This document shows, in pieces, positions 4,441 to 22,841 of a stretch of 34,737 nucleotides of DNA; within the stretch, counting starts at the first letter, position 1; each line of letters starts with the position of its first letter. This DNA comes from an uncultured Paracoccaceae bacterium (GTDB lineage Bacteria > Pseudomonadota > Alphaproteobacteria > Rhodobacterales > Rhodobacteraceae), in NCBI GenBank assembly GCA_905181985.1, contig CAJIZW010000100.1, forward strand, positions 1-34,737. The letters are read 5' to 3'. The notes beneath the pieces are model-generated. The model was not told the origin of the DNA and ran no database searches. It saw only the letters and a program-made list of their open reading frames with translations. The position numbers were made by a program, and so were the translations under genes.

Positions 4441-6021
4441 ATGAATTTAAACATAACTCCAAAAACTTCTAAATCTTGGATATCAGATAAAGAAGAAGTT
4501 GCATTTATTGATGTTAGAGAAATAGGACAACACACGAGTGGGCATCCATTCTTTTCCGTATCAATACCATATAGCTTGTTTGAATTGAGAATAGAAACAC
4601 TTGTTCCTAATAAAAAAACAAGAGTTATTTTAATTGATAATAATGATGGCATATCAAAATTAGCATATAATGTAGCACATAAATTAGGTTATTCTAATAT
4701 TTTCATCATAGAAGGGGGGATTGAGGAGTGGGTAAGTGCAGGGTATCAGTTATTTGATGGTATTAATGTTCCAAGTAAAAGCTTTGGTGAACTAATTGAG
4801 AAACATTTCCATACTCCTTCAATCACAGCAAAGGAATTAATTAAAAAACAAAATAATAACGAAAACTGTATTGTCATAGATGGTAGACCGTTCGAAGAGT
4901 ATAACAAGATGAGCATACCTAAGAGTATTTGTTGCCCAAATGCTGAACTATTATATAGAGTTTCATCTCATGTAAAAGATATCAATACTGAAATAATTAT
5001 AAACTGTGCAGGAAGAACAAGATCTATTATTGGAGCACAAACACTTATTGATTTTGGTATAAAAAATAAAGTGCAAGCTCTTGAAAATGGAACACAAGGG
5101 TGGTTTCTATCTGATTTAAGTTTAGAGCATAATAAAACTGAATATCTTTCAGTTGGCCCTAACGATATAGAAATAAAAAAATTACAAAACAAGGTTATGA
5201 AATTAACAAACTACCTTAATATTGATTTAATTGATTTTAAAAAAGCTCAAGAATTAATTATAGATAAGAACAGATCTACATTTATTTTTGATGTCACTAC
5301 TTCTAAAACAATTAATAGTACTCAAGATGTTATTATGAATGTCCCAGGTGGCCAACTTGTTCAAGCTACTGATAAATACATTGGTGTTTGGAAAGCGACA
5401 ATTATACTTGTGGATGATGGTGATTTAATTAGAGCGGGAACAACATCTTTTTGGTTAAAAAAAATGGGTTGTAAAGTCTACATATTAAAAGAAGGATTGT
5501 TAAAAGCAAAAAAGTTAAAATTTCAGAAAGAAGTAGGCTCAAAAAAAATAGACTTTGATTCGATAACTTTAGAAGATCTAGGCAGAGTTAAAAATCAAAC
5601 TTTATATGATATAAGGCCTAGCAATGAATTCTGTAAAACTAGGATAAAAAATTCCATTTGGTTAAGCCGTGCCAGTTTAAACAAGCAAAATATTAAAATG
5701 GATGATCAAATCGTTATAGTTACTGATAAGCTTGATAAAGCAAGTTTAGTTATTAATGATTTAAGAGATATGGATAAAGAAGTAAGGGTTAAAGTTTATA
5801 AATGGAACCAAAGTGAAATTAAAAATTGCGTTTCTATAATGGATAAAACTACTAAGCCGCTTTCAGAACAAAATAACATAGACTTTAATTTTCATACGCA
5901 TATGCGACACAAAGGGAATAAGGAACACGCTGAACAATACCTTGAATGGGAAATAAACCTAGTAGAGAAAATGGATGAACAAGAATTATCTTTCTTCAAA
6001 CTATATAAACCAAATCTTTAA
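4441..6021 (+). CDS. Four-domain rhodanese-like protein with one intact active-site cysteine
   Basis: The 526 residues divide into four rhodanese-like repeats at about 10-105, 125-230, 255-365 and 378-465, plus a C-terminal tail. Each has a beta-strand Asp near its start (FIDVRE, VIDGRPFEEY, IFDVTTS, LYDIRPSNEF). Only repeat 2 keeps the nucleophile: IINCAGRTRSIIGAQ (C189). At the same position repeat 1 has IDNNDG, repeat 3 VDDGD and repeat 4 TDKLD. A single catalytic site plus three structural domains is therefore likely. The tail holds THMRHKGNKEHAEQYLEWE, a conserved-looking element unlike rhodanese. Single-Cys rhodaneses move sulfane sulfur from persulfides or thiosulfate. The gene follows the aldehyde dehydrogenase by 33 bp and converges with a thiol-dioxygenase-like cupin 29 bp away. 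Its coding sequence is visibly richer in A+T than the liu or nuo genes. Confidence 0.85.
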   Translation: MNLNITPKTSKSWISDKEEVAFIDVREIGQHTSGHPFFSVSIPYSLFELRIETLVPNKKTRVILIDNNDGISKLAYNVAHKLGYSNIFIIEGGIEEWVSAGYQLFDGINVPSKSFGELIEKHFHTPSITAKELIKKQNNNENCIVIDGRPFEEYNKMSIPKSICCPNAELLYRVSSHVKDINTEIIINCAGRTRSIIGAQTLIDFGIKNKVQALENGTQGWFLSDLSLEHNKTEYLSVGPNDIEIKKLQNKVMKLTNYLNIDLIDFKKAQELIIDKNRSTFIFDVTTSKTINSTQDVIMNVPGGQLVQATDKYIGVWKATIILVDDGDLIRAGTTSFWLKKMGCKVYILKEGLLKAKKLKFQKEVGSKKIDFDSITLEDLGRVKNQTLYDIRPSNEFCKTRIKNSIWLSRASLNKQNIKMDDQIVIVTDKLDKASLVINDLRDMDKEVRVKVYKWNQSEIKNCVSIMDKTTKPLSEQNNIDFNFHTHMRHKGNKEHAEQYLEWEINLVEKMDEQELSFFKLYKPNL

Positions 6022-6050
6022 TAGTTAGGTCACTCCTGGGCGGTATAGTT

Positions 6051-6563
6051 TTACAATTCTGCCTTGATATTAGATCTTTGAATATTATCTAAATTTACAC
6101 CTTCAATTCGTAATAATCTTACGGGCGCTTTCCGTACAGGAGAATGGACATCCCCAACACTATAAAAATGAACATCTCCAGTTTTCATTATATAAGTTTT
6201 ATTAGGTTTAACGTAAACAACTCCTTCATCAGGCTGCTCTTTTATAATCTGCCAGTCTGTCATTTCTGTTTCACCTGAAGCTTGCCCGTACACTGCCCAA
6301 CTTGACCCATGATCGTGAGGAAACCCAATAGCTTTAGTTGCATAGACATGCCCACAAATGCAAAATCCAGTATGATCATCCTCATAAAGAATTTCTCTTG
6401 GAGAGCTTCCTTCTTTTCTATTAGGAAGATTCTGCAATACAAAGCTGGGATCCATTAATGCTTTTGATACGAAATTGCATATTTTTTCTGAGCCATTAGG
6501 CATTTTATTAGTTTGAACTATATCTTTAATATCATTAGCTAGGTCATTTAGTGTATAAGGCAT
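6051..6563 (-). CDS. Cupin of the cysteine-dioxygenase-like superfamily
   Basis: A 170-residue double-stranded beta-helix protein. The metal motif is in FPHDHGSSWAVYGQASGET (H83, H85, with E98/E100 nearby), and the second cupin motif supplies H140 in GDVHSPVR. The element H-x-H-G-x-x-W-A-x-Y-G-x-x-x-G-x-T-x-M-T-D-W belongs to the predicted metal-dependent family allied to cysteine dioxygenase, in which mononuclear iron inserts O2 into a thiol. The N-terminus (about 1-60) is helical, as usual there. A good ribosome site (TTGGAG, 7 bases) precedes the ATG. Rhodanese and cupin genes converge tail to tail. The substrate could be cysteine, 3-mercaptopropionate or another thiol; a non-thiol substrate is also possible. 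The upstream 413 bp contain the hairpin region at 6646-6715. Confidence 0.75.
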   Translation of the reverse strand: MPYTLNDLANDIKDIVQTNKMPNGSEKICNFVSKALMDPSFVLQNLPNRKEGSSPREILYEDDHTGFCICGHVYATKAIGFPHDHGSSWAVYGQASGETEMTDWQIIKEQPDEGVVYVKPNKTYIMKTGDVHFYSVGDVHSPVRKAPVRLLRIEGVNLDNIQRSNIKAEL

Positions 6564-6645
6564 TTTTTACTCCAAGTTATAGATTTTACTAATACGATAA
6601 TTTTTTATTCTCCAATTAAACTGTCATACTAAAGTGACCAAAAAA

Positions 6646-6715
6646 GGGAGAGGTGTGCAAGATGTCTTGCAGATTTTTTCTTTCGGCTCTCATTCACCTG
6701 CAAGATGCCTCCTCT
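6646..6715 (-). promoter_or_regulatory. Candidate switch-like leader or terminator: two mutually exclusive hairpins upstream of the cupin gene
   Basis: TGCAAGATGTCTTGCA (6656-6671) is an almost perfect local inverted repeat. Part of it, CTTGCAG (6666-6672), is also complementary to CTGCAAG (6698-6704), so the two pairings exclude each other. TGCAAGATG is a direct repeat at 6656-6664 and 6699-6707. An outer stem AGAGG (6649-6653) with CCTCT (6711-6715) closes the long form. On the minus strand the structure is followed by CCC and six T (complement of 6640-6645), as in an intrinsic terminator. It lies about 80-150 bases upstream of the cupin ATG and about 260 bases past the stop of the gene at 6978. 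It may end transcripts of the 6978-7776 cluster or control the cupin. The rest of 6564-6977 shows no gene. Confidence 0.4.
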
Positions 6716-6977
6716 TGAACTTCCAGAGCGTTCAGATTACTAGGCTTTTCTTTATGAAACAACCGTTGAACAGAGAGAAAGGAAAATTTTTTAATGTGAT
6801 TGATGAATGATGAAAATAGAAGAGGATACAAAACAGTTTGAGGAAAAGATTTTAAGAGTAATCATCGTCATTTCTCTAATTTGAACAAAAAATGTGATCT
6901 GGTTGTGGTCTTTATAGTCTTACCGTTATGAAAAATGTAATTTAGTTTTAATAATTTATTCGCTTAAAGATGGTAGA

Positions 6978-7235
6978 CTAAGCAATGCTTGATTTATTTA
7001 AAATCCTTAGTAGGTTTTCTTTTTCTTTAACAACTTCTACAAATGATTTTTTATTCTCTTGGGCAAAAGTTTCTAATTCAAAATAGCAATTTATACATAG
7101 TTCAATTCTTTTATTGTTAGTCTCTACCTTAGTTGTAACAAGAGGTTCATCAAAATCAGGATGTGGGTTGGCAGTTCTGCAGCAAAAACAACAAGTTGAA
7201 TTGGGTCTATTGTAGGTAAAGTTAGGTTTTGTCAT
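6978..7235 (-). CDS. Small Cys-rich protein, putative zinc-binding, unknown
   Basis: 85 residues. Cysteines cluster as STCCFCCRTANPHPDFDEP near residues 14-20 and as LCINCYFE near residues 47-52, separated by about 30 residues. This is the layout of a two-CxxC zinc site with additional Cys and His. The C-terminal 30 residues are a Lys/Glu-rich helix (FVEVVKEKENLLRILN). No signal peptide or membrane segment is seen. The start overlaps the stop of the upstream gene by one base (TAATG), which suggests translational coupling. I do not recognise the family. It is last in a three-gene minus-strand cluster. That it is a real gene is supported by the coupling and by regular spacing of Cys residues. 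Confidence 0.6.
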   Translation of the reverse strand: MTKPNFTYNRPNSTCCFCCRTANPHPDFDEPLVTTKVETNNKRIELCINCYFELETFAQENKKSFVEVVKEKENLLRILNKSSIA

Positions 7236-7432
7236 TACTTGTAATGTTCTCTTCTAGAGCCCATTTCATTTACTCTCTTTCGCCATGCTTTGTAACTTCC
7301 TGGCTTAAGGTTTTGTCTCATTAATAGTTTAACATCTTTTTCGCTAATATTGTGTTGTGCCTTTATATTTGAAAAAGATATGTGATCGCTCAGAGCCATC
7401 TCTATAATTTCACTGACGTCGCTTTCTTTCAT
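7235..7432 (-). CDS. TIGR03643 (DUF2805-like) small helix-turn-helix-like protein
   Basis: 65 residues matching the remembered TIGR03643 pattern: a short N-terminal helix (EIIEMALSDHISFSNIKA), then a helix-turn-helix-like pair (QHNISEKDVKLLMRQNLK), then the conserved P-G/S-S-Y/F-K-x-W-R-K-R-V, here PGSYKAWRKRV. The family is widespread and uncharacterised; elsewhere it is often found near cryptochrome/photolyase and DUF2256 genes, none of which is in this window. The fold and basic C-terminus suggest nucleic-acid or protein binding, but that is inference. Both ends are coupled by TAATG: its ATG sits on the stop of the 114-residue gene and its stop on the start of the 85-residue gene. Confidence 0.8.
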   Translation of the reverse strand: MKESDVSEIIEMALSDHISFSNIKAQHNISEKDVKLLMRQNLKPGSYKAWRKRVNEMGSRREHYK

Positions 7433-7776
7433 TAATTAACCCATGGAAAGTTAATTGCATTGTTAAGGTCGATAACTTTGCATGGAACAAATTCGTTATC
7501 ATTTATCCTCTTTTTTTGACAATCATTTTGTCCAACGTTAAATTTCTGATCTGGCATAAAAGATCTTCGTCCTGATGGGTCACACGCATCTAACATATCT
7601 GTTCTGCCAGTCCATTCAAATATTTGTGATTGTATCCATTCTTTTTGACTCTGAACTAATTGTAAAATTTCATACATATATTTACCATCATCCATGCCAT
7701 TGCCATGTAAACCATGGACTACATTCTTGCCACATTTTCCACAATTTAAAATAATTTTTAAGAGATTCAAATCCAT
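7432..7776 (-). CDS. Conserved-looking small protein with CxxC and further Cys, unknown
   Basis: 114 residues, first gene of the minus-strand trio. The N-terminus has NCGKCGKNVVHGLHG (CxxC at 12-15 with two nearby His), a helical middle (YMYEILQLVQSQKEWIQSQI), then a segment with three more Cys (DACDPSG, NDCQKKR, FVPCKV). Five Cys and paired His would fit a metal site. The high Trp/Met/Gly content and absence of low-complexity sequence argue for a folded, selected protein. No membrane segment or signal peptide is seen, and I do not recognise the family. Its TAA overlaps the ATG of the TIGR03643 gene by one base. A TATACT box upstream (complement of 7803-7808) could be its promoter. Confidence 0.6.
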   Translation of the reverse strand: MDLNLLKIILNCGKCGKNVVHGLHGNGMDDGKYMYEILQLVQSQKEWIQSQIFEWTGRTDMLDACDPSGRRSFMPDQKFNVGQNDCQKKRINDNEFVPCKVIDLNNAINFPWVN

Positions 7777-7802
7777 TAATTTGCCTTTACAACAACTAGT
7801 TT

Positions 7803-7808
7803 AGTATA
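7803..7808 (-). promoter_or_regulatory. Possible -10 box for the three-gene minus-strand cluster
   Basis: On the minus strand TATACT lies about 27 bases upstream of the ATG at 7776. It matches the sigma-70 -10 consensus in five of six positions. The -35 hexamer at 17 bases (TTTATG) is poor, so this is only a suggestion. The remaining gap 7777-7877 also separates this cluster from the glmS stop, and I see no clear terminator in it. Confidence 0.3.
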
Positions 7809-7877
7809 TCAGAAACGCACCGTTACATAAACATTTATTCTATTGCTCAGTTAGGTATTAAACACCCCTCAGCAAAA

Positions 7878-9704
7878 CTACTCCACAGTGACTGATTTAG
7901 CTAAATTTCGGGGCTGGTCAACGTCTGTGCCTTTAGTTATCGCCGTATAGTATGCAAGTAATTGCATTGGGATAGCGTAAACAATTGGTGCAAAGAGGTG
8001 AGTAATTTTTGGCATTTCTATAACTTCCCATAAACCCTCAGAAGCAACTTTGGAGCCTTCACGATCTGTTACAAGTATTACCTTACCATCTCTTGCCATA
8101 ACCTCATGCATGTTTGAAATTGTTTTCTCAAATAAATCATTAGTGGGAGCAATTACGACTACAGGAACTTTATTATCTATTAAGGCGATTGGTCCATGCT
8201 TTAATTCTCCAGAGGCAAAACCCTCTGCGTGTATATAACTAATTTCTTTTAGTTTGAGGGCACCCTCTAACGCTAGTGGGTGCATCACCCCTCTACCAAG
8301 GAATAACATGTTTGTAATTTTTGAAAGTTTTCGAGAGATTTTTTCAATTTTTGGACTCGTATCTAAAACATCATTCTGCAAACTAGCTAAGTGGCGTAAG
8401 TTTGAGAGTTGGATTTGCAATTGACGAGGAGACATGTTTTTTTGCTCTGTTGCAACTTTTAAAGCTAAAATTGCAAGTACTGCTAATTGATTAGTAAAAC
8501 CCTTAGTGGATGCAACACTGATCTCTGGACCTGCTAAAATTGGAATAGCTAGGTCACTTTCTCTAGCAATAGAGCTTTCAGAAACATTTACGATAGAGAT
8601 AACTTTTTTAGCATGTATTTTTGCGTATCTTAAGGCTGCTAATGTATCTGCTGTTTCACCTGACTGGCTTACAAAAATTGCGAGAGTATTTTTTGTGAGT
8701 GGTGGCTCTCGATATCTAAACTCTGACGCGATATCGACTTCAACAGGAATGCGTGAAAATTTCTCAAACCAATATTTGGCAGTCGCACATGCTAGGTAAG
8801 CGGTTCCGCAGGCGACCATGGTAATTCTTTCGATTTTTTCTAAGTCTATTTCAGAACAATTAATTGTAATCGAATTTCCATCTGCTGAGATATATCTATT
8901 GATGACTCGGGAGAGAGCTTCAGGTTGCTCAAATATTTCTTTCAACATAAAATGTTTAAACCCATCTTTACTGCTCCGGATCTGATCAGGTTTAATTTTA
9001 TTGATTTTACGTTCAACAAGATTATCGGACTGATTAAATATTTTAACACTGTTTCGCTGGATAACAGCACAGTCACCTTCTTCTAAATAGGAAATTTTGT
9101 TTGTTAGAGGGGATAGAGCAATAGCGTCAGAGCCGACAAACATTTCGCCTTTACCATAACCGATGGCTAAAGGAGATCCTTGTCTCGCAGCAATCATTAA
9201 ATCAGGTTCTTCTGAAAAAAGGAAACATAGAGCGAATGCTCCCTGCAATAGTGGCAAAGTTTCTTTTACTGCCTTAGTTGGGTGCATGCCATCTTTCATA
9301 AACTTATGTACTAGATGAGAAATAACTTCTGTATCAGTTTCAGACTCAAATTTTGCACCCTCTGCTATCAGCCCAGACTTTAGATCATTAAAGTTTTCGA
9401 TTATTCCATTATGGACCACCGCTACTGATGTTCCTGATTGATGTGGGTGAGAGTTTAAAGTTGTTGGTGCTCCATGAGTGGCCCACCTAGTATGCCCAAT
9501 ACCCGATTTACCTGATAGCGGATTACGTACTAAATGATCTGAAAGGTTGAGAAGCTTTCCAACGGATCTTCTCCTGTCAAGCTTTCCTAAATTAACTGTT
9601 GCTATTCCAGCGCTATCGTACCCCCGATACTCTAAGCGTTTTAGAGACTCCAATATAAGGGGGGATACTTCATTTTTACCTAATATACCTACTATGCCAC
9701 ACAT
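7878..9704 (-). CDS. glmS: Glutamine--fructose-6-phosphate aminotransferase (isomerizing)
   Basis: 608 residues, full length. The enzyme makes glucosamine-6-phosphate from fructose-6-phosphate and glutamine, the first step to UDP-GlcNAc for peptidoglycan and lipopolysaccharide. The N-terminal Ntn glutaminase domain begins MCGIVGILGK, with Cys2 as nucleophile after Met removal, followed by LEYRGYDSAG, GHTRWATHG and the HPH / VVHNGIIEN motifs. Two SIS sugar-phosphate domains follow, with VACGTAYLA, SQSGETADTLAALR and the late EGFASGELKHGPIALI. The C-terminal catalytic Lys is in LAKSVTVE. Its ATG directly follows the glmU TGA with no gap, so the pair is translationally linked. There is no glmS ribozyme; that element is confined to Gram-positive bacteria. 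Confidence 0.98.
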   Translation of the reverse strand: MCGIVGILGKNEVSPLILESLKRLEYRGYDSAGIATVNLGKLDRRRSVGKLLNLSDHLVRNPLSGKSGIGHTRWATHGAPTTLNSHPHQSGTSVAVVHNGIIENFNDLKSGLIAEGAKFESETDTEVISHLVHKFMKDGMHPTKAVKETLPLLQGAFALCFLFSEEPDLMIAARQGSPLAIGYGKGEMFVGSDAIALSPLTNKISYLEEGDCAVIQRNSVKIFNQSDNLVERKINKIKPDQIRSSKDGFKHFMLKEIFEQPEALSRVINRYISADGNSITINCSEIDLEKIERITMVACGTAYLACATAKYWFEKFSRIPVEVDIASEFRYREPPLTKNTLAIFVSQSGETADTLAALRYAKIHAKKVISIVNVSESSIARESDLAIPILAGPEISVASTKGFTNQLAVLAILALKVATEQKNMSPRQLQIQLSNLRHLASLQNDVLDTSPKIEKISRKLSKITNMLFLGRGVMHPLALEGALKLKEISYIHAEGFASGELKHGPIALIDNKVPVVVIAPTNDLFEKTISNMHEVMARDGKVILVTDREGSKVASEGLWEVIEMPKITHLFAPIVYAIPMQLLAYYTAITKGTDVDQPRNLAKSVTVE

Positions 9705-11054
9705 TCAGTTATCTTTTGATTTCTTTTTTGACTTAAGGAGAGCAACCAGTTTTTTAACGTATCCTGGCTTATTTACTTGCTTCACTCTACCAATAGCAAG
9801 ATTTCCACTTGGGATGGACTCAGTTACAATAGTTCCTGAGGCAGTCATAGAGTTATCTCCAACTGATACAGGAGCCACAAGTAAAGTATTTGAGCCTATA
9901 AAAACGTCATTTCCAATTTCTGTAATATGCTTACTTATACCATCATAGTTACAAGTTATCGTCCCAGCACCTATATTGGAATTTTCTCCTATAGTGGTGT
10001 CACCAATATAAGATAGATGATTAATTTTTGATTTTGCACTTATTGTTGAATTTTTTATTTCAACAAAGTTACCCACTTTTACATCTTCGCTTAATTCGGT
10101 TCCTGGACGCAATCTTGCAAACGGGCCTATCTGTGCCCCTTTAGAAATATGACATCCTTCTAAATGACAAAATGGTAAAATTTCAGCCCCAGATTCAATA
10201 GTGACCCCTGGTCCAAAAACTACATTAGGTCCTATACAGGCTTCACGGCCTATTTCGGTGTCAAAAGAAAAATAGGTGGTCTCCGGTTGGCTTAATGTCA
10301 CACCATTTTCGATTATACGTTCGCGCGCCCTTATTTGGAAAGTGTGTTCAGCACTGGATAACTCAGAACGAGTATTAATACCTAATGTCTCCGCTTCATC
10401 ACAACACACTACCTTAATTGATAGATTTTGATCTTTTGCAGCTTCAACAATGTCTGTAAGGTAGTACTCTTGGTTGGCATTTTCATTAGTAATGTTACTC
10501 AGTAATTGGAAAAGAATTTTGTTCTCTGTATAAAGTACCCCTGAGTTACAAAGGGTGATCTTTAATTGTTCAGTAGTTGCATCTTTGGCTTCTATAATGC
10601 TGATTAATTGATCATTTTCTATTATTAACCTGCCGTAATTACCAGGATGTTTACTTTTGAAGCCTAATACTACCAGGTCAGTCCCACTCTCTTTTTCTTC
10701 GATGAGCAACTCGAGAGTATCTGGTGAGATAAAAGGAACGTCTCCATACAGTATAAGTGTGTTTCCAGTAAAGTTCTTTAGCATTTTCTCGGCGCACTTA
10801 ACCGCGTGACCAGTGCCTTTTTGCTCTATTTGTCTGACAAAATCTATTTCAGGCTCAAGTTCACTTATCTCTTGTTCAACTCGTTCGGCACCATACCCCG
10901 TTATTACAATTATTCTATCTGGATCTAATGATTTTGCTGTTCTAAGAGTATGCATTATCATTGGTGCACCAGCTATTTTGTGCATCACTTTTGGGGTCTC
11001 TGAATTCATCCTTTCTCCGCGCCCGGCAGCTAATATTACTATTGCACGTTCCAT
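9705..11054 (-). CDS. glmU: Bifunctional GlcNAc-1-P uridyltransferase / GlcN-1-P acetyltransferase
   Basis: 449 residues, the usual length. It acetylates glucosamine-1-phosphate and adds UMP to give UDP-GlcNAc. The N-terminal nucleotidyltransferase has LAAGRGERMNSETPKVMH, then KGTGHAVKC, YGDVPFI and the metal-ligand region NSGVLY. The C-terminal left-handed beta-helix shows hexapeptide repeats, the catalytic His in INHLSYIGDTTIG and the acetyl-CoA-binding GAGTITCNYDG. The tail is Lys-rich (LKSKKKSKDN). GlmM, which converts GlcN-6-P to GlcN-1-P between the two steps, is not in the window. A 111-123 bp divergent region separates it from gph, and a plausible promoter for both directions must lie there, though I cannot pick convincing boxes. 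Confidence 0.98.
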   Translation of the reverse strand: MERAIVILAAGRGERMNSETPKVMHKIAGAPMIMHTLRTAKSLDPDRIIVITGYGAERVEQEISELEPEIDFVRQIEQKGTGHAVKCAEKMLKNFTGNTLILYGDVPFISPDTLELLIEEKESGTDLVVLGFKSKHPGNYGRLIIENDQLISIIEAKDATTEQLKITLCNSGVLYTENKILFQLLSNITNENANQEYYLTDIVEAAKDQNLSIKVVCCDEAETLGINTRSELSSAEHTFQIRARERIIENGVTLSQPETTYFSFDTEIGREACIGPNVVFGPGVTIESGAEILPFCHLEGCHISKGAQIGPFARLRPGTELSEDVKVGNFVEIKNSTISAKSKINHLSYIGDTTIGENSNIGAGTITCNYDGISKHITEIGNDVFIGSNTLLVAPVSVGDNSMTASGTIVTESIPSGNLAIGRVKQVNKPGYVKKLVALLKSKKKSKDN

Positions 11055-11177
11055 TTGAGTACTCTTTTATAATTTCCTATGTTCATAATCTTATCGCGCT
11101 AGTTTGCAAGTATTGATCTGTAACTTCTGGTTTCATCATATTACAGTGAAAGAAAAATTTGTAGAATGGAAAAATTA

Positions 11178-11843
11178 ATGAAAACAATAATTTTTGATCT
11201 AGATGGTACATTAGCTGATACCAGTGAGGATCTACTTAATGCCGCTAACAGTTGTTTTAAAAAACTTGGATTTGATGGGACTCTTAATTTGGTAGACCAC
11301 TCCCACATAGCATTAAAAGGTGGGCGGGCCTTATTGAAAGCAGGATTTGACTTAGCAAAGGTGGTTTATAATGAAAGTGATATCACTCGAGAGTATCCAC
11401 TTTTTATTAAAACATATGAAGAAAACTTAAGTGTTCATACATTCTTTTATCCGAGAGTTCGAGAAACTATATTAGTTTTAAAAAAGGCTGGTTTTTTAGT
11501 TGGTATCTGTACCAATAAGCCGGAGTACTTGGCAGAAAAATTATTGGTTAGTCTAAATTTTCGTGAAGAATTTGGTTCATTAGTTGGAGCGGATACAATT
11601 GCATTTAAAAAACCACGCCCTGAGCCTTATATTGAAGCTGTTCAGAGGTGTGGTGGAGATGTAAAGCGATCGTTGTTAGTAGGTGATACATTAACAGATT
11701 ATGATACCGCACGAGCTGCAGGCGTTCCAATAGTTTTAGTTGATTTTGGTCCTGGAAAATTTGAAATAAATTCGCTAAATCCAGATGCTTTTCTATCTGA
11801 TTATAAAGACTTACTAGAAATTTCTAATACTCTAATTCCTTAG
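11178..11843 (+). CDS. gph: HAD-superfamily phosphoglycolate phosphatase
   Basis: 221 residues from the chosen ATG. Haloacid-dehalogenase phosphatase of the Gph group, which removes phosphate from 2-phosphoglycolate arising from oxygenase activity or DNA repair. Motif I is IFDLDGTLADTSEDL with the nucleophile and acid/base Asp, motif II GICTNKP, motif III the Lys in FKKPRPEP, and motif IV LLVGDTLTDYDTARAAG. The helical cap lies between about 20 and 85. An in-frame ATG at 11166 would add four residues; the ATG at 11178 leaves the normal two residues before IFDLDGT and has GGA at 6 bases. It is divergent from glmU, an order (gph / glmU-glmS) common in marine alphaproteobacteria. Other small HAD phosphatases are hard to exclude. 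Confidence 0.88.
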   Translation: MKTIIFDLDGTLADTSEDLLNAANSCFKKLGFDGTLNLVDHSHIALKGGRALLKAGFDLAKVVYNESDITREYPLFIKTYEENLSVHTFFYPRVRETILVLKKAGFLVGICTNKPEYLAEKLLVSLNFREEFGSLVGADTIAFKKPRPEPYIEAVQRCGGDVKRSLLVGDTLTDYDTARAAGVPIVLVDFGPGKFEINSLNPDAFLSDYKDLLEISNTLIP

Positions 11844-21633: not shown

Positions 21634-22841
21634 GTAGTTCTAGTTTAGAAGAAAATTTACTTGAAGAGCATAAAATTCGAAACTTCAATATAAATTTTGG
21701 CCCTCAACATCCTGCTGCACACGGTGTCCTGCGTCTAGTTTTGGAGCTCGATGGAGAAATTGTAGAGCGGTGCGACCCTCATATAGGATTACTTCATAGA
21801 GGTACTGAGAAACTTATGGAGAGTAGAACATATCTACAAAATTTACCATATTTTGATAGACTGGATTATGTGTCTCCGATGAATCAAGAACATGCTTGGT
21901 GCTTAGCTATTGAAAAGCTAACTAAGACACCTGTGCCTTATAAGGCATCACTAATTAGAGTTCTTTATAGTGAAATTGGACGAATTCTTAATCATTTATT
22001 AAATGTAACTACACAGGCTATGGATGTTGGCGCTTTAACTCCGCCATTATGGGGTTTTGAAGAGAGAGAAAAGCTGATGGTCTTTTACGAAAGAGCATCT
22101 GGAGCTAGATTGCATGCTGCTTATTTTCGTCCGGGCGGAGTTCATCGTGATTTGCCTGTTGATCTACTTGATGATATTGAAGCTTGGTGTGGGACATTCC
22201 CGGCAGTCCTTGATGATATTGATGGTTTATTGACTGAAAATCGTATTTTTAAACAAAGAAATGTTGATATAGGCATTGTTTCTCAACAAGATATACTCGA
22301 TTTTGGATTTTCAGGGGTTATGGTTCGTGGGTCAGGCCTTGCATGGGATTTAAGAAAATCACAACCGTATGAGTGTTATGAAGAGTTTGATTTTAACATC
22401 CCTGTAGGTAAAAGTGGTGACTGTTACGACAGGTATTTGGTGCGAATGGAAGAAATGCGTCAATCTATGTCTATAATCCTGCAAGCCATACAGAAAATCC
22501 GTTTAGAAGACGGAGATGTTATGACTCGTGGAAAGGTGGTTCCGCCAACTAGAGCTGAAATGAAGACATCGATGGAGGCGCTAATTCATCACTTTAAGCT
22601 ATATACAGAAGGATTCCATGTCCCTAAAGGAGAGGTCTATGTGGCAGTCGAGGCACCTAAAGGAGAGTTTGGTGTTTACTTGGTTGCTGATGGTACAAAT
22701 AAGCCTTACCGAGTTAAGCTTAGGGCCCCTGGATTCCTCCATTTACAAGCTATTGAGTACATGTCTAAGGGGCATCAGCTTGCAGATGTCTCTGCTATTA
22801 TTGGTACTATGGATGTAGTTTTTGGTGAGATAGATAGATAA
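21630..22841 (+). CDS. nuoD: NADH-quinone oxidoreductase subunit D
   Basis: 403 residues, the 49-kDa subunit related to the large subunit of NiFe hydrogenases but without the nickel cysteines. With NuoB it forms the quinone-binding cavity. Motifs: [16 protein letters not shown] (quinone-site His), [35 protein letters not shown] (conserved Tyr and Asp near the head of quinone), and [11 protein letters not shown]. The C-terminal [12 protein letters not shown] is the normal end. Its ATG overlaps the nuoC stop by four bases and its stop overlaps the nuoE start by one. Confidence 0.98.

Follow-up and report, generated by a model that had tools for sequence, protein, structure and literature searches.

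Three very short genes, each overlapping the next, lie on the minus strand of a 34,737-nucleotide contig from an uncultured Paracoccaceae bacterium (assembly GCA_905181985.1, contig CAJIZW010000100.1; this whole stretch is referred to here as the window), and they raise the question of whether all three, or only some of them, belong to one functional unit. A preliminary description had interpreted them as a translationally coupled set in which two cysteine-rich proteins flank a member of the uncharacterized TIGR03643 family. The three genes are as follows.

7776-7432, minus strand: 114-residue ORF, the upstream member of the trio
7432-7235, minus strand: 65-residue ORF, the middle member, TIGR03643/DUF2805
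7235-6978, minus strand: 85-residue ORF, the downstream member

The sequence contains a one-base TAATG overlap at both junctions, exactly as had been described. Such overlaps are ordinary rather than rare in the window, as the nuo operon has two more, at 22841 and 32176. When six proteins of the window were scanned against profiles, the 65-residue protein was the only member of the trio with a convincing family match. It scored 68.6 bits against TIGR03643 (cut-off 66.55), confirming its earlier assignment, and 64.7 bits against Pfam DUF2805 (PF10985; 1e-17, cut-off 22.5). For the 114-residue and 85-residue proteins, Pfam, NCBIfam and PHROG returned nothing meaningful. The window contained no Rfam family at the gathering score and no tRNA.

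A pattern-based scan of 84,980 species genomes, which reaches close relatives only, yielded four relatives of the 114-residue ORF, all from uncultured Alphaproteobacteria with isolate names of the form AG-.... Residues 14-114 of the ORF correspond to the last 101 residues of these homologues at 75-79% identity, and its first 13 residues lie outside the homologous stretch. The complete parent copy (L024) is 331 residues long, and the ORF aligns to residues 231-331 alone, i.e., to its C-terminal third. At the other loci (L022, L023 and L025) the frame of the homologue is open upstream as far as the contig end, indicating that these homologues are also parts of longer proteins. At all four parent loci, where the contigs end upstream of the parent gene, the next gene downstream encodes a 67-residue protein and not TIGR03643; in L024, the locus that was scanned, this protein is DUF1737. 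Two of these four genomes carry TIGR03643 on another contig, and in the remaining two it was not found.

The 331-residue parent begins with a signal-like segment, and motifs in the trypsin order can be read by eye, for His (SQAHV), Asp (YDLLLL) and Ser (GCSGSP), all upstream of the part shared with the ORF. In these respects it resembles the trypsin-like secreted proteases (PF00089), and it is probably a secreted, trypsin-like protein, although the label is a weak one: the match to Pfam Trypsin spans almost the whole profile, with an E-value of 0.061 and a score of 13.6 bits that is below the cut-off of 20.6. One homologue and a shorter stretch gave no match to this profile, PDB searches returned no relevant match, and the predicted fold of the parent (pLDDT 30.9) provided no usable model. 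The truncation of the 114-residue ORF is independent of the trypsin label. This ORF starts past the Ser motif and differs from trypsin-like proteases in having none of the three putative catalytic motifs; a signal peptide is also absent.

The CxxC sites of the two flanking proteins had been part of the argument for a shared role. In the 114-residue ORF, this site (C12-C15) straddles the edge of the homologous stretch. The four homologues retain C15 and have no CxxC there; to place C12 opposite their C222, the MAFFT alignment has to open a gap of seven residues. Of the ORF's five cysteines, four are conserved in the homologues. The frame is free of stops and shows no visible decay, with dN of 0.11-0.14 against the homologues and dS above 1.2, which is near saturation and makes the ratio rough. 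Its divergence looks constrained, which may reflect a recent arrival or a frame that is still used. Among 61 relatives the ORF was present in one, the window's own genome, and the full-length parent likewise matched only this genome among 385 genomes of the class; no relatives of either were found in phages, plasmids or viral contigs. Judged by these alignments, the ORF looks like a C-terminal fragment of a secreted protein preceded by 13 unrelated N-terminal residues.

Comparison with the sister genome G001 showed that nearly all of this ORF lies within a segment absent from G001.

7440-7873, no strand assigned: 434-bp block with no equivalent in sister genome G001

The DNA on either side of the block matches G001 at 89% and 92% identity. 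In place of the block, G001 holds 1,554 bp with a Rieske-type oxygenase gene and a MORN-repeat gene, the latter occupying the position of the 114-residue ORF. In a second sister genome, G002, the 3' end of the MORN gene was seen in the 40 bp that remain on the contig. In G001 the end of the MORN gene, too, overlaps TIGR03643 by one base, since TTAATTAATG, at the TIGR03643 side of the join, is common to all three genomes (G000, G001 and G002). The TAA of the 114-residue ORF falls on this same shared sequence, which suggests that the first overlap of the trio arose through the join itself. Inside the block, neither a longer remnant of the protease nor one of the MORN gene could be found, and the 136 bp at its glmS side had no convincing match among the loci compared. 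In a search that lacked a positive control, MORN was not found elsewhere in the window's genome, a draft that is 78% complete and consists of 140 contigs.

The downstream gene gave a different picture. In G000, G001 and G002, the 85-residue gene lies directly 3' of TIGR03643, and the two share the one-base overlap. Four members of the genus were sampled, and these three are the ones that yielded TIGR03643, each with the pair intact; the fourth, whose genome is 74% complete, yielded neither gene. The linkage is thus one observed within a single genus. Relative to G001, dN/dS was 0.07 for the TIGR03643 gene (14 differences) and 0.13 for the 85-residue gene (21 differences), indicating that both are under purifying selection, and the 85-residue gene is genuine. 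The co-occurrence with TIGR03643 that had been proposed as a check on both flanking proteins held, within the genus, for the 85-residue protein, but no instance of it was found elsewhere for the 114-residue ORF. As a set of three adjacent genes the trio is not conserved among the 61 relatives, its upstream member having been found only in the window's own genome. It is probable that the trio consists of a genus-level gene pair and a stray fragment and is not a conserved unit.

The cysteines of the 85-residue protein fared better than the CxxC of its upstream neighbour. C15, C18, C47 and C50, the four ligands that a C4 site would use, were invariant in all five aligned sequences, which represent three contexts, and NPHP..EP was also kept in all five, giving the layout CxxC...NPHPxFxEP...CxxC. 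This pattern of invariance makes a C4 zinc site likely. Like C4 zinc-finger and zinc-ribbon proteins, it has a pair of CxxC knuckles separated by about 30 residues, but differs from them in having no meaningful E-value in Pfam, NCBIfam or PHROG. The nearest comparisons are a ClpX-type finger and the zinc site of HNH/endonuclease VII proteins; the His-Asp-His of HNH enzymes is, by eye, missing. PDB matches, endonuclease VII among them, had E-values of 0.18 or worse, no better than chance.

Remote homologues of the 85-residue protein were found in G036, the only one among 57 sampled relatives outside the genus, and in G249, the only other match in the 385 class genomes. TIGR03643 was not found in the G036 genome and lies about 1.1 Mb from the homologue in G249; partnership with TIGR03643 is thus not required for the 85-residue protein to be present. 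No relatives were found in viral contigs or plasmids. At the G249 locus (L141, region 5939-11184), the homologue is near genes that we labeled, from their sequences, as a molybdopterin oxidoreductase, a YeeE-like transporter and a sulfurtransferase-like gene.

The middle protein passes both curated cut-offs of its family and has the residues A13, D16, F20, I23, M38, W50, R51 and R53, which are invariant in a 55-member alignment that includes it. Its C-terminus sets it apart from other family members: it is a short form that lacks the GRxxKH tail and ends in SRREHYK. Its predicted structure (pLDDT 83.5) consists of four helices with a middle that resembles a helix-turn-helix (helix 20-27, turn, helix 31-41). 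Foldseek found no match to this model at E<=0.001, and the best VIA match, with Z 4.4, was a chain of a splicing complex. Going by title, 34 of the 50 structural matches listed were DNA-binding regulator domains, of helix-turn-helix or other type; the list also included histones and unrelated proteins. The best PDB sequence match, to residues 209-245 of RpoE, was weak (E 0.081). The helix-turn-helix reading is only suggestive, and on this model nucleic-acid binding is the most likely role of the protein. The literature searched gave no function for TIGR03643. In one study, DUF2805 appears in a marine metagenome correlation "spoke" with translation-linked domains (PMC3597751), and another records one domain architecture that combines it with a Nudix enzyme (PMC6856373).

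Searches for TIGR03643 were positive in 8 of 61 relatives, in 36 of 385 genomes of the class and in 31 of 398 of the phylum. Of the 68 genomes with a match, G042 and G637, which had a short partial match only, were omitted; in each of the other 66 we surveyed the neighbourhood of one locus, and observed diverse contexts. A photolyase-type gene, grouped by similarity, occurred within six genes of TIGR03643 at 15 of the 66 loci, including 3 of the 17 loci of the window's subtype (ending DRRxxYK), and a DUF2256-like gene was this close at 4 of the 66; both kinds of neighbour were labeled from their sequence motifs. On a Vibrio plasmid, an annotated photolyase and a flavin reductase lie near TIGR03643. 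No photolyase was recognized by reading the ORFs of the window, in line with the contrast that had been drawn between this locus and others. Within three genes of TIGR03643, small two-CxxC proteins accounted for 8 of 122 small-gene slots, vs 6 of 128 at a distance of four to six genes; three of the 8 belong to the window's genus, and the two-CxxC definition leaves out DUF2256-like proteins (CxxC and CxxxC). There is thus no general enrichment of such proteins near TIGR03643. Within six genes of TIGR03643, a protein that reads as HNH-like was seen at 6 of the 66 loci (L121, L122, L123, L128, L130 and L135).

The family is also encoded on at least 79 putatively viral IMG/VR contigs (L144-L222), 20 of which exceed 100 kb; this count is a lower bound obtained with two peptide patterns from an alignment of the gammaproteobacterial type of TIGR03643. 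The window's own TIGR03643 protein, used as the query, matched none of the viral contigs. Within four genes of TIGR03643, a quinone-reductase-like gene was present on 27 of the 79 contigs and thymidylate synthase on 17. One protein of each kind was scanned: the quinone-reductase-like protein matched an NCBIfam oxidoreductase below the cut-off, and the thymidylate synthase matched a PHROG at 1e-107. Three IMG/VR TIGR03643 proteins compared with PHROGs gave nothing better than E 0.0095.

Downstream of the 85-residue gene, beyond a 414-bp gap, are two further genes, neither of which is part of the unit.

6051-6563, minus strand: cupin-type protein with HDH...H, the next same-strand gene after the gap
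4441-6021, plus strand: multi-rhodanese-domain protein (four stretches, 4.5e-34), convergent with the cupin gene

From its motif we take the cupin-type protein to be thiol-dioxygenase-like; a profile search of the PDB with this protein gave chance-level matches. In L103, from another family, a cupin homologue (Cupin_2, E 3.7e-4) is again found near TIGR03643 and a rhodanese homologue is the third gene after it, a recurrence that hints at thiol or sulfur chemistry. The link is not a general one. Among 29 further cupin loci, each with about 1.5 kb of flank, TIGR03643 was present in none and a rhodanese match in one, and a sulfur-metabolism context for TIGR03643 was dropped. Immediately upstream of the cupin gene, a stretch of roughly 100 bp (6564-6665) is nearly the same in three species and better conserved than the remainder of the gap, and could possibly be a regulatory leader; hairpin energies in the gap did not go beyond those of shuffled sequences.

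The reading that we favor, and consider probable with a good deal of room for doubt, is that TIGR03643 and the 85-residue gene constitute a functional unit and that the 114-residue ORF is a stray fragment brought in by block replacement. The unit would be a two-gene pair in which TIGR03643 is followed, through a one-base stop/start overlap, by the gene for the C4 protein. TIGR03643 would be a small four-helix protein that binds DNA (or RNA) via its helix-turn-helix, and the 85-residue protein would be a zinc-binding partner acting with or next to it; their translation may be coupled, and the two proteins may associate physically. The 114-residue ORF would be a 3'-terminal piece of a gene whose product is secreted and probably trypsin-like, a piece that arrived when the 434-bp block replaced the Rieske and MORN genes, provided that the G001/G002 arrangement is taken as ancestral. 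The original proposal, a small metal-binding complex of all three proteins made in fixed ratio, has in its favor the two overlaps, the conserved C4 site and the four cysteines of the 114-residue ORF that its homologues keep. We now regard it as highly improbable, since a MORN gene takes the place of this ORF in G001 and, judging from 40 bp, in G002, its homologues belong to a longer protein whose gene is not followed by TIGR03643, its CxxC is absent from them, and two-CxxC proteins are not enriched around TIGR03643. The preliminary description had itself named homologues beside TIGR03643 and conserved cysteines as decisive; no such homologues were found for the 114-residue ORF, and its CxxC is not conserved, while the 85-residue protein has both, with the linkage seen in one genus.

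Two other explanations concern the fragment itself. It might have been co-opted, being expressed from the junction and working with the pair as a new species-specific gene, and its open frame, its constrained-looking divergence, the fusion of its stop to the TIGR03643 start and, by eye, an AAAGG shortly ahead of the ATG and TGATATACT upstream are consistent with this idea. Nevertheless, the signal peptide and putative catalytic motifs are gone, all of the divergence may precede the transfer, and there is no two-hexamer promoter match on the minus strand from 7776 to 7880; we consider co-option unlikely. We assign a similarly low probability to gene birth caught soon after the join, in which case a truncation-born protease fragment would have been captured in frame with the existing pair and would now be translated as a coupled third member. 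That the block is an assembly error might be suspected from a genome that is 78% complete in 140 contigs and is the only one of 61 with the ORF, but this is quite improbable: sister synteny resumes on both sides at 89% and 92%, unlike a simple end-to-end chimera, and the known homologues are just 75-79% identical. A more serious competitor to the two-gene unit is that TIGR03643 is one component of a DNA-repair or flavin module that includes photolyase, DUF2256 and quinone or flavin reductase, the 85-residue gene being a local neighbour that shares its transcript. The photolyase-type and DUF2256-like genes at 15 and 4 of the 66 loci, the quinone-reductase-like and thymidylate synthase genes on the IMG/VR contigs, the Vibrio plasmid and the existence of 85-residue homologues without TIGR03643 all point in this direction. 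Conversely, 51 of the 66 loci, some of them cut by contig ends, have no photolyase within six genes, and in the window's subtype 3 of 17 do have one, leaving this module a possible but doubtful explanation.

Preference for the gene pair over the trio removes what was probably a false lead, in that the neat overlap of small cysteine-bearing ORFs would have been made in part by a recombination junction. The lead that remains is the pair of TIGR03643 and the C4 protein, and the presence of TIGR03643 on many contigs of the viral collection makes its function more worth testing.
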